From: Haloactinopolyspora alba
GTDB lineage: Bacteria > Actinomycetota > Actinomycetes > Jiangellales > Jiangellaceae
Reading direction: 5' to 3'
DNA length: 64,000 bases
Assembly: GCF_003014555.1 (NCBI RefSeq)
Contig: NZ_PYGE01000012.1
Location: 62,001 to 126,000, forward strand
Position 1 is the first letter of the stretch, and the number at the start of each line of letters is the position of its first letter. A model generated the notes under the pieces. It saw nothing but the letters and a program-made list of their open reading frames with translations, searched no databases and was not told the DNA's origin. Below are positions 42,738 to 47,707 of the stretch, piece after piece. A program made the position numbers and the translations under genes.

Positions 42738-42786
42738 GAAGCCGGCGGACGGCTTCGCACCCCCGTCGGCTCGGCCGGTAGCTTTT

Positions 42787-42953
42787 GTCACCTGATCGCG
42801 ATTTCGTCACCTGATCACCGCCGCGTGAACGATCAGGTGACGCGATGCCGGGTGTGGGGCGCGGGGCGTCACCTGATCGCGTCTCAGCATGCGGATGCGA
42901 AATGATCAGGTGACAGCAGGGGCCGGATACGGGCGGCATTGTCACCTGATCAT
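42787..42953. repeat. GTCACCTGATC array 2: six copies
   Basis: Between pepA and the YdhR-like gene (a 279-bp gap). Copies are at 42787 (-), 42806 (-), 42831 (+), 42868 (-), 42904 (+) and 42941 (-), so hairpins can form between 42806/42831, 42831/42868 and 42904/42941, with alternative pairings. The 11-bp motif is identical in all six and in the four copies of array 1, while the sequence between them is unrelated. Confidence 0.92.
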
Positions 42954-43016: not shown

Positions 43017-43364
43017 ATGTACGGACTGACGGTGCGCTGGTCGCTGGCGCAGGCGCCCGAGGGTGTCGACGCGGAGCTGCGCGAATACGTGCACGGCACG
43101 TCGCTGGCGAGGTTCAGCGAGATGGACGGGCTGCGGTTCAAGACCTGGCGCACCCGGCCGGGGGAGTGGTTCGAGGGCACCTACGTCTTCGAGACGGCAC
43201 AGGCGCGGGACGAGTTCGCCGAGTCGTTCGCCGCCACGGCCGCCGACTCGCCGGGCTCGCGGATGATCGGCTCGCCGCCGATTCTGCAGGAGACGTTCGA
43301 CGTCGTCGCCGTCGCGGAAGGGAAGGCCGGCTTCGCGGCCGGCCCCGGCCCGGACCCCGCCTAG
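43017..43364 (+). CDS. YdhR-like monooxygenase family protein
   Basis: 115 residues, dimeric alpha/beta-barrel fold. It begins MYGLTVRWSLAQAPEGVDAE and has GLRFKTWRTRPGEWFEGTYVFET, as in the putative mono-oxygenase YdhR family, followed by the helix ARDEFAESFAATAADSPGS and ILQETFDVVAVAEG. No cofactor residues can be assigned. GGAGGTAGGAG precedes the ATG. It stands alone between two repeat-filled gaps. Confidence 0.85.
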   Translation: MYGLTVRWSLAQAPEGVDAELREYVHGTSLARFSEMDGLRFKTWRTRPGEWFEGTYVFETAQARDEFAESFAATAADSPGSRMIGSPPILQETFDVVAVAEGKAGFAAGPGPDPA

Positions 43365-43423: not shown

Positions 43424-43542
43424 GCGTTGATCTTGGAGTTTCGGCTCGCAAGGCCGGCGCCGAGAGCTACAGCGAGCAGGGCAAGAAGGGGCTCAGGACC
43501 GGACGTTTCGGTCGCTGGAGCCCGCAAACTCCACGCTCAACG
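43424..43542. repeat. CGTTGATCTTGGAGTT inverted repeat, copy 1
   Basis: Left arm GCGTTGATCTTGGAGTTT (43424-43441), right arm AAACTCCACGCTCAACG (43526-43542) with two mismatches. The 84-bp interior carries smaller hairpins. The right arm includes the TGA stop codon of the alpha/beta hydrolase (43537-43539, minus strand). Same family as 45244-45319. Confidence 0.85.
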
Positions 43543-44439
43543 GGGCGGGGCGGTGTGGTTCAGCACGGCGTCGACGACGAGGTCCCACAGCTGCTGCGGC
43601 GGCATCTGGTGACCGACGCCCGGCAATGCCACGAGCCGGGCGCCCGGGATCTCGCGCGCCAGCGCTTCACCGTGCGGGAACGGGAGCAATGGATCGTCGG
43701 TGCCGTGCATGACCAGCGTGGGCGCCGTGATCTCGGCCAGGCGGTGCCGTACCGGCTCGCCGCCCTCGAGGATCCAGTGGTTGGTCTGGCAGGCCACGAT
43801 GTCGGTGGTGCGGTCGTACATCCGGCCGGCGATCGTGCGGGCCCGGTCGTCGTCGTACGGGACCGATCCGGCGAACGGCCGTTCACTCTGCACGAGGTGC
43901 TCCACCGCCGCCGCCCGGTCGGACCAGTCCGGCTCGGGCGCGTCGTCGGTGAACGCTGCCGAGATGCGCGGTTCCATCGGCGGAAGTTCCGGTGCGTCCG
44001 GGCCGTGTGGTCCGTCGGGTGTCGTGGACATCAGCGTCAGCCCGGCCACCCGCTGCGGGTGGAGCACGGCCAGATGCTGGGCGATTCCGCCGCCCATCGA
44101 GACGCCCGCGACGTGCGCGGCCGTGATCCCGAACCCGTCCAGGACGGCGAGGGCGTCGGTCACCAGGTCGGTGCCGCTGTAGCCGGGCGCGCCGGGCGGG
44201 TAGCTGGTGGAACGGCCGGTGTCGCGGTTGTCGTAGCGGACGACGTAGCGCCCGCCCGCCGCGAGGCGCTCGCACAGCTCGTCCTCCCACCAGTCCATGG
44301 ACGCGGCAGCGCCGGCGACGAGCAGGATCGGCGGGTGGGACGGGGTGCCGAACGCCTGGGCGCACAGCGTCGCGTCGCCGGACGGCAGCAACGTTTCGTC
44401 GGATCGGGGGATGTCAGCGGACGTGGTGGGCTCGGTCAT
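43537..44439 (-). CDS. Alpha/beta hydrolase
   Basis: 300 residues, no signal peptide, cytoplasmic. The fold is plain: PPILLVAGAAASMDWWEDELCERL, RYDNRDTGRST, nucleophile elbow GVSMGGG near residue 105, acid region MHGTDDPLLPF, and His in LPGVGHQMPPQ. Close in type to the pentapyrrole/anthracycline methylesterase-like and haloperoxidase-like groups; substrate not assignable. It is divergent from an HxlR-type regulator, with a CTACAG-TTT-CTGTAG palindrome in the 70-bp gap, so probably regulated by it. Its last codons and stop lie in the arm of an inverted repeat. Confidence 0.92.
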   Translation of the reverse strand: MTEPTTSADIPRSDETLLPSGDATLCAQAFGTPSHPPILLVAGAAASMDWWEDELCERLAAGGRYVVRYDNRDTGRSTSYPPGAPGYSGTDLVTDALAVLDGFGITAAHVAGVSMGGGIAQHLAVLHPQRVAGLTLMSTTPDGPHGPDAPELPPMEPRISAAFTDDAPEPDWSDRAAAVEHLVQSERPFAGSVPYDDDRARTIAGRMYDRTTDIVACQTNHWILEGGEPVRHRLAEITAPTLVMHGTDDPLLPFPHGEALAREIPGARLVALPGVGHQMPPQQLWDLVVDAVLNHTAPPR

Positions 44440-44469
44440 GGCGGCCTCCTATTGAATATGAAGAAGATG

Positions 44470-44484
44470 CTACAGTTTCTGTAG
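44470..44484. promoter_or_regulatory. Candidate operator CTACAG-TTT-CTGTAG
   Basis: A perfect 6-bp palindrome with a 3-bp spacer, in the AT-rich divergent gap between the alpha/beta hydrolase and the HxlR-type regulator. TAGTAC (44482-44487) next to it is a plausible -10 for the regulator. Confidence 0.5.
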
Positions 44485-44509
44485 TACTCATGGAAGTGGT
44501 GGTTTCCGC

Positions 44510-45250
44510 ATGAGCGTCCGCAGGCGCTACGGCCAGGGCTGTCCCGTCGCGCACGCGCTGGACATGATCGGCGAGCGGTGGGCTCTGCTCGTCGTCCGCG
44601 AACTGCGGCTGGGCGGGCGCCGGTTCAGCGACCTGCAGGAGGCGCTGCCCGGCGCCGGTCCGACCGTGTTGTCCCAGCGGCTGCGTGACCTGGAAAGCGT
44701 CGGCGTGCTGCGGCGGCGCACGCTGCCGTCGCCCGCCAACGCGCGGATCTACGAGTTGACGGACTGGGGTGCCGAACTGGAGCCGGTGTTCCGGGCGCTG
44801 GCGCGGTGGGGTGCGCGGTCACCGATCGTGCCGCTCGAGGGTCCGATCAGTTCCGACTCGATGATGCTCGGGTTGCGGACGTTCTTCCCGTCCACGGTGG
44901 ATCCTCCGTGGTCGGCGACGTACGAGGTGCGCATCACCCGATCCGGGTCCGGCGGTCCGGAGGGCGTCGACGGGGGCGACGCTGACGGCGTCGACGGTGC
45001 GGGTTTCGACTCGTACGTCGTCGAGATTCTGGACGGACGGCTGCAGCGGCTGGCCCGGGACGTGCCCAGCGGTGCTCCGGACATCGTCGTCAGTGCGAGT
45101 CGCGACGCCCTCAAGGCCGTGCTGGACGGCACGGAGTCCGCGGCCGCGGCCGTGGCCGCCGGACGGATCGACGTGGCGGGCGACGTCGAGACGGTGCAGC
45201 GCCTCGCCGACGCGAGCCGCAGCCTCCCGCCCGCCGCCTCAGCGCGTTGA
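44510..45250 (+). CDS. HxlR family regulator with SCP2-like C-terminal domain
   Basis: 246 residues. The HxlR winged helix fills the first 105 residues (CPVAHALDMIGERWALLVVRELRLGGRRFSDLQEAL, then LSQRLRDLESVGVLRRR); the Cys-Pro start is the family mark. The last 80 residues (YVVEILDGRLQRLARDVPSGAPDIVVSASRDALKAVLDG) look like an SCP2/alkyl-sulfatase-dimerisation-type lipid-binding domain, so a hydrophobic ligand is likely. A Gly/Asp-rich insert (GSGGPEGVDGGDADGVDGAG) separates them. It probably controls the divergent hydrolase. Its TGA stop lies in the left arm of the inverted repeat at 45244. Confidence 0.9.
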   Translation: MSVRRRYGQGCPVAHALDMIGERWALLVVRELRLGGRRFSDLQEALPGAGPTVLSQRLRDLESVGVLRRRTLPSPANARIYELTDWGAELEPVFRALARWGARSPIVPLEGPISSDSMMLGLRTFFPSTVDPPWSATYEVRITRSGSGGPEGVDGGDADGVDGAGFDSYVVEILDGRLQRLARDVPSGAPDIVVSASRDALKAVLDGTESAAAAVAAGRIDVAGDVETVQRLADASRSLPPAASAR

Positions 45251-45312
45251 TCTTGGAGTTGTTCCGGGTATCGCGTCCGGAATGTCCGATAGATGAACGA
45301 AGAACTCCAAGA

Positions 45313-45319
<7 letters not shown>
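45244..45319. repeat. CGTTGATCTTGGAGTT inverted repeat, copy 2 (perfect 17-bp arms)
   Basis: Arms 45244-45260 and 45303-45319 are perfect complements with a 42-nt loop. It lies in the convergent gap of the HxlR-type gene and the YdeP-like gene. The left arm contributes the stop codon of the first (45248-45250), and the right arm that of the second (45313-45315, minus strand). Probably a two-way terminator; no T-tract. Confidence 0.92.
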
Positions 45320-47616
<2,297 letters not shown>

Positions 47617-47644
47617 GTACTGACGGTAGTACTTGCGGGCACCC

Positions 47645-47707
47645 TTTCCCATGATCATCGGCACTTTGCCGCTCATGTGGCGGACAAGTGCCGATGATCA
47701 TGGGAAA
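47645..47707. repeat. Long perfect hairpin centred on TGATCATC
   Basis: Arms 47645-47666 and 47686-47707 are perfect 22-bp complements (inner part CCCATGATCATCGGCACTT), and the 19-nt loop folds further through CCGC / GCGG. It sits 29 bp upstream of the YdeP-like start codon in the divergent gap, not after a gene. A related TGATCATC hairpin lies at 55832. Confidence 0.88.

Follow-up and report, generated by a model that had tools for sequence, protein, structure and literature searches.

How do the arms of two inverted repeats come to carry the stop codons of three neighboring genes? The question is raised by a 64,000-nt stretch of the Haloactinopolyspora alba genome (the window), in which an earlier note had described two inverted repeats of one family, the second with perfect 17-bp arms, and had reported that three of their four arms are read in frame as Arg-stop (...CGT TGA) by the adjoining genes, an HxlR-type regulator, a YdeP-like oxidoreductase and an alpha/beta hydrolase. 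Both repeats were found at 43424-43542 and 45244-45319, the perfect arms of the second were confirmed in the sequence, and the three Arg-stop ends were recovered in the gene translations. The features are the following.

43424-43542: element 1, an enlarged family copy of 119 nt, with arms at 43424-43440 and 43526-43542
43537-44439, minus strand: alpha/beta hydrolase; Abhydrolase_6 domain ends at residue 291 of 300; tail NHTAPPR
43537-43539, minus strand: hydrolase stop, provided by the right-arm TGA of element 1; protein end ...TAPPR-stop
44510-45250, plus strand: HxlR-type regulator whose C-terminal SCP2-like domain ends at residue 233 of 246; tail SLPPAASAR
45226-45243: C-rich outer flank of element 2; encodes the new HxlR tail and pairs with the G-rich flank
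45248-45250, plus strand: HxlR stop, provided by the left-arm TGA of element 2; protein end ...AASAR-stop
45244-45319: element 2, an intact copy, with perfect 17-bp arms at 45244-45260 and 45303-45319
45313-45315, minus strand: oxidoreductase stop, provided by the right-arm TGA of element 2; protein end ...TPASR-stop
45320-45337: G-rich outer flank of element 2; its minus strand encodes the new oxidoreductase tail
45313-47676, minus strand: YdeP-like molybdopterin oxidoreductase; Molydop_binding domain ends at residue 774 of 787; tail EPSATPASR

The HxlR and oxidoreductase genes form a convergent pair that, as the earlier note had it, stops in both arms of one hairpin (HxlR at 45248-45250, oxidoreductase at 45315-45313). 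The tails of all three proteins lie C-terminal to the last Pfam domain. Element 1 is decayed: its left arm is exact and its right arm has two mismatches in 14 nt (GTTGAGCGTGGAGTT), with the family core CCGGACGTTTCGG present in the loop. The flanks of element 2 lengthen its pairing to 34 nt at 82%. Arm matches in the 64-kb window numbered four, versus 0.06 expected from shuffled sequences. The fourth arm lies 61 nt downstream of the gene at 43017-43364, which has its own stop, a TAG at 43364. No part of the window matched Rfam above the gathering score. A separate repeat, GTCACCTGATC, was observed at 42786-42945; it forms arrays of about 3-6 copies in alternating orientation with a spacing of ~37 nt, has 258 exact copies in the window genome versus 0 for a reversed-pattern control, and is also frequent in genomes G010 and G016.

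A dispersed hairpin family in Jiangella and in the genus of the window

The two elements belong to a dispersed palindromic family of ~72 nt, shared by the genus of the window and Jiangella (genus g4), a member of the same GTDB family. Nearly all of the 122 distinct copies collected were 71-72 nt long, with arms GTTGATCTTGGAGTT, a stem GTTGATCTTGGAGTT(G/C)TTCGGC and an asymmetric loop with the core CATCTATCGGACATTTC. Most were retrieved via exact arms, so the constancy of the arm is overstated, and the copy counts contain some orthologous copies. The left outer flank is C-rich and the right one G-rich irrespective of gene context, a skew that fades within ~50 nt.

The motif GTTGATC[GT]TGGAGTT was found in 10 of the 12 Jiangella genomes, with copy numbers ranging from 0 (G004 and G014) to ~60. 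Identical loci or elements identified G008 as J. aurantiaca, G009 as J. endophytica and G013 as J. rhizosphaerae. Pattern searches of the window genome revealed four exact arms and about 11 recognizable copies, in some of which T-A in the arms has become G-C with compensation (GTTGATCGTGGAGTT ... AACTCCACGATCAAC); beside the copy at C13:63910, gene L019 likewise has its stop in the arm (...DPPSSR-stop). Outside the GTDB family, the arm pattern was present in one of 373 sampled genomes of the class (G203), with a compensated AA/TT core, and Dactylosporangium fulvum has at least one copy among the matches listed. No family match was found in viral contigs. The literature search found no paper printing the arm sequence, and such repeats are not described in the genome paper of Jiangella gansuensis. 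A shorter subfamily of 60-61 nt, GTTGATCATGGAG(AA/TT), lacks the CGGACAT loop (L090:5221-5280, L116:1896-1956, L189:1501-1561 and L236:1850-1910).

Copies favor convergent junctions and overlap genes in a single frame

Genes were called with a simple codon-usage model trained on the loci, which reproduced the genes of the window. Of the 113 copies (out of 122) that could be classified, 55 lay between convergent genes, versus 149 of the 826 neighboring pairs in the same loci (P ~1e-11), and nine between divergent genes; none of the 122 lay within a genuine gene. The 20 copies of an independent set, taken from genome G005, behaved in the same way for position and frame.

The earlier note had proposed tabulating distance and frame from the flanking stop codons across the genome. 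When this was done for the 195 gene 3′ ends adjoining the pooled 142 Jiangella copies, the distribution was not random, and the scatter that the note had named as a refutation was thus not seen. About a fifth (40/195) terminated exactly at the arm's TGA, and none at positions -4 to +4 of the arm edge; the other 155 terminated elsewhere, mostly 5-60 nt from the arm. No gene stopped further inside the element than the arm TGA, nor was there any credible read-through. In the consensus element the other two frames are open over the full length, so that under random frames two thirds of the overlapping genes would be expected to read through; the pattern observed has P ~2e-18 under that assumption. 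The sole apparent read-through gene was the secreted-protein-like L224:3898-5533 in G005, which looks frameshifted, its coding signal being gone past residue ~270. The tails preceding the arm's TGA are rich in proline (fraction 0.32 versus 0.09) because the outer flank is C-rich. An in-frame backup stop was also considered as a role for the arm TGA and rejected, the genes that stop ahead of the element being unbiased in frame (44/37/34, P = 0.5).

The exact frame seems better explained as a filter than as a targeting of stop codons, because genes crossing the hairpin in either of the open frames would not be retained. Such a strict filter would be indirect evidence that the hairpin must remain untranslated to work.

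Orthologous genes differ in their C-termini with and without the element

Junctions orthologous to those of the G005 copies were fetched from G004, G008, G009 and G013 using the flanks of the copies, and the C-termini were aligned, as the earlier note had suggested. The three left-hand genes ending in an arm were all 3-4 residues longer than their element-less orthologues: L218 ends in ...VKAAITWPEPS-stop versus ...VKAAITW-stop, L226 in ...ATRAVARPTPS-stop versus ...ATRAVVR-stop, and L233 in ...TTPARVDPAR-stop versus ...TTPARVE-stop. In the pairs L123/L165 and L060/L118, in which both species carry the element, one member stops in the arm and its orthologue stops earlier. The arm's TGA is thus the point to which gene ends slide. 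This comparison supports the suggestion that the element inserts at or captures gene ends, creating new C-termini, since the short Pro-rich tails are absent from element-less orthologues; neither a target-site duplication nor a targeting of stop codons was found.

Genome G004, from which the family is absent, carries at two of these junctions an unrelated perfect hairpin (GTGACYTSAGCGCCAAC mirrored), itself a small multi-copy family; G014 has one of the two. At one junction where G004 carries the GTGACYTSAGCGCCAAC hairpin, J. aurantiaca (G008) has a GTTGATCATGGAGAA variant. At other junctions the orthologues had no perfect hairpin of at least 11 bp.

The HxlR/oxidoreductase junction was followed with oxidoreductase orthologues from 20 genomes of the family. 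In most Jiangella the two genes converge with an overlap of 26-35 nt and the family hairpin is absent; in G006 the oxidoreductase tail is longer and extends deeper into the HxlR gene. In the window genome, G009 and G010 the element separates the pair and both stops lie in its arms. In these three genomes the oxidoreductase ends not in the tail EPAAS but in EPSATPASR, EPTAPAPAPPR or EPAESGLPR, and the HxlR tail RKIRTRPAPA is replaced by SLPPAASAR, THPTPR or ARPATAPSR. The three carriers are not sisters in the oxidoreductase tree; recurrent gain, or many losses, are therefore needed. In a further genus (L315 in G021) the oxidoreductase stop is the TGA opening an unrelated 23-bp perfect hairpin, TGATCATGAACACTAGTCGACC; a stop codon at the base of a TGATC hairpin may be a feature not confined to the 72-nt family.

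The natural series offered by one gene pair (overlap, this hairpin, another hairpin) allows one to ask how high-GC bacteria, which rely little on U-tract terminators, insulate convergent genes. It is also a concrete, countable case of non-coding repeats resetting protein ends.

A stable, covarying hairpin that may end transcripts on both strands

When folded as RNA, element 2 with its flanks gave -68 kcal/mol on one strand and -61 kcal/mol on the other, with z = -8.2 for both. In 35 variant copies, among them members of subfamilies whose cores are AT, AA or GT and whose positions 14-15 read TA/TA or AA/TT, arm pairing was 0.857, versus 0.657 ± 0.02 when shuffled, which reflects compensated changes. 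Stem position 16 showed no covariation in the exact-arm set, which means that the arms are constant partly in sequence rather than in structure. Site-specific pairing of the C-rich and G-rich outer flanks was discarded, pairing past positions 1-2 being no better than that of shuffled flanks in an ungapped test; exact inverted flank words and complementarity were above shuffles over the 142 copies.

Neither element is followed by a U-tract. On either strand the stem runs into the G-rich flank instead, and a terminator-consensus scan gave no match at either window element, so the canonical (L-shaped) intrinsic terminator, a hairpin plus U-tract, was rejected. As judged from sequence, the family would fit an I-shaped or bidirectional terminator, that is, a very stable hairpin near the stop on both strands: the z-scores of element 2 are equally low for both strands, most 3′ ends lie within 60 nt and convergent junctions are enriched. 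The earlier note had offered co-evolved bidirectional terminators as an explanation; position, a stable fold on both strands, covariation and the unrelated hairpins at the same junctions make this the most likely function, although one exercised without a U-tract. A loop of 4-8 nt is said to be optimal in Escherichia coli (PMC8269248), and the family loop of ~28 nt speaks against a terminator, as do the missing covariation at stem position 16, the several orthologous junctions that lack any perfect hairpin and the nine copies between divergent genes.

We consider it probable (roughly 0.6) that the element is a repeatedly gained, bidirectional, U-tract-less (I-shaped) terminator or mRNA 3′-end hairpin that resets gene ends, with termination itself being the presumed activity. 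Gene junctions, chiefly convergent ones, would acquire the element repeatedly. On its arrival, or once the fast-changing C-rich flank has lost the old stop, a gene would read into the flank, acquire a short Pro-rich tail and meet its first stop at the TGA in CGTTGATC. Only the frame of the arm TGA would survive, since translation in the open frames would presumably melt the hairpin. The hairpin would act on both strands, either terminating transcription or fixing the mRNA 3′ end. More tentatively, the Jiangellaceae may carry 'mobile terminators', multi-copy hairpin families that repeatedly invade junctions, separate overlapping convergent genes and provide bidirectional 3′ ends together with new stops and tails, different lineages having different hairpins at the same junction.

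Alternative explanations and dispersal

Rho might instead be the terminating agent, with the hairpin merely shielding a trimmed 3′ end from exonucleases. The absence of a U-tract and the C-rich stretch immediately upstream on both strands agree with this. In Streptomyces, structured 3′ ends that lack a U-tract, such as those mapped in Streptomyces clavuligerus, are interpreted as I-shaped terminators or as Rho-dependent, hairpin-protected ends (PMC8269248). The C-over-G excess, however, spans only ~50 nt and equally fits an extended lower stem. That length is short for a rut region, and with the skew vanishing by ~50 nt the C-rich flank makes a weak rut site, which leaves a Rho-based origin of these ends rather unlikely.

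It is also unlikely that the family is a purely selfish, MITE-like element, tolerated at gene ends only and with no transcriptional role for its hairpin. Copy number varies from 0 to ~60 among congeners, the arms are terminal and inverted, and orthologous sites differ in presence and absence. Moreover, identical 72-mers occur in J. aurantiaca at up to four unrelated loci, with shared flank extending up to ~50 nt more, so copies do disperse. No target-site duplication was found, however, direct flank repeats being no commoner than in shuffles of the 142 copies, and the Y1 transposase PF01797, the one transposase family searched, was absent from the 20 family genomes (5 of 14 control genomes matched), which argues against a RAYT/REP origin. 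At shared sites the arms stay intact although the loops and flanks change, a contrast inflated by the ascertainment of copies via exact arms, and both the strict frame filter and the replacement by unrelated hairpins suggest that the hairpin has a function. An integron attC origin was dismissed: attC ends are RYYYAAC...GTTRRRY, and the ends of the family, GTTGATC...GATCAAC, run in the opposite orientation. Template switching, put forward as a way in which perfect stems arise and are mended (PMC8794818), could maintain the matching of the arms, but would not alone explain the spread of copies. A copying route is presumed in the terminator reading as well.

The arm might also be conserved for its sequence, as a signal bound by a protein or of the DNA-uptake type, with the hairpin secondary, as in the DUS pairs of Neisseria terminators. 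The 15-nt arm is indeed more constant than pairing alone demands, and its sequence is conserved between species in spite of loop turnover, but exact arms lie mostly in paired hairpins and not as single sites (94 of 113 in J. aurantiaca are in exact pairs) and subfamilies alter the arm with compensation, making a sequence signal improbable. An insertion targeting stop codons or TGA sites, with the gene's own TGA absorbed into the arm, is very improbable, for although element-less orthologues show an arm-like TGATCTT at the oxidoreductase stop, the orthologous stops at L218, L226 and L233 lie 3-4 codons ahead of the element's TGA without TGATC, and most adjoining 3′ ends stop elsewhere.

Relation to known systems

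Bacterial hairpins favor convergent intergenic regions and the 50 bp past stop codons (PMC1590033). The I-shaped or bidirectional terminators of high-GC bacteria are, like the family, stable GC-rich hairpins after stops with a convergent bias and no U-tract (PMC8269248, PMC1590033); the family differs in being one dispersed sequence with long arms and a 28-nt loop, in having an arm that supplies stops, and in that its terminator role is presumed. Neisseria DUS and Haemophilus USS are short conserved sequences that also occur as inverted pairs and terminators at gene ends, DUS pairs forming terminators in Neisseria (PMC2397512). DUS are also plentiful as single copies and serve DNA uptake, whereas the family forms a fixed 72-nt unit with mostly paired arms and has no known uptake role. 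REP elements are likewise short extragenic palindromes, often at 3′ ends, but the family unit is longer, with a conserved asymmetric loop, and lacks the Y1 transposase. With MITEs the family shares inverted terminal arms, dispersal and a non-coding nature, yet it has neither a target-site duplication nor a known parent element. Mycobacterial MIRU repeats are reported to overlap stop and start codons, and their end, too, overlaps the stop codon of the preceding gene; they are directional and lie inside operons, in contrast to the palindromic, convergent-biased family, which can end two genes at once. Within the literature searched, the capture of stop codons by a dispersed repeat family, strictly in one frame and with C-termini that change between species, appears to be new.

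Other observations at gene junctions

The block that holds the hydrolase and HxlR genes (43543-45243) is exactly the interval separating elements 1 and 2. It is present in Jiangella and missing from G001, a member of the window's genus, and from other genera; in block-less genomes the oxidoreductase lies directly opposite the 43017-43364 orthologue or the gene next to it. Block exchange at the two elements is a possible source of this difference. A second multi-copy hairpin family, TGAGCGCCAAC W GTTGGCGCTCA, occurs at 14 places in G004 and 12 in J. aurantiaca, partly at the same gene junctions as the 72-nt family (L199:1725-1764, L316 and L322 are among the examples). In G014, a convergent pair surrounds the hairpin CCATGATCATCCAGGATTC...GAATCCTGGATGATCATGG (L200:4316-4372), one gene stopping inside the arm at CCATGA and its partner right at the arm edge.
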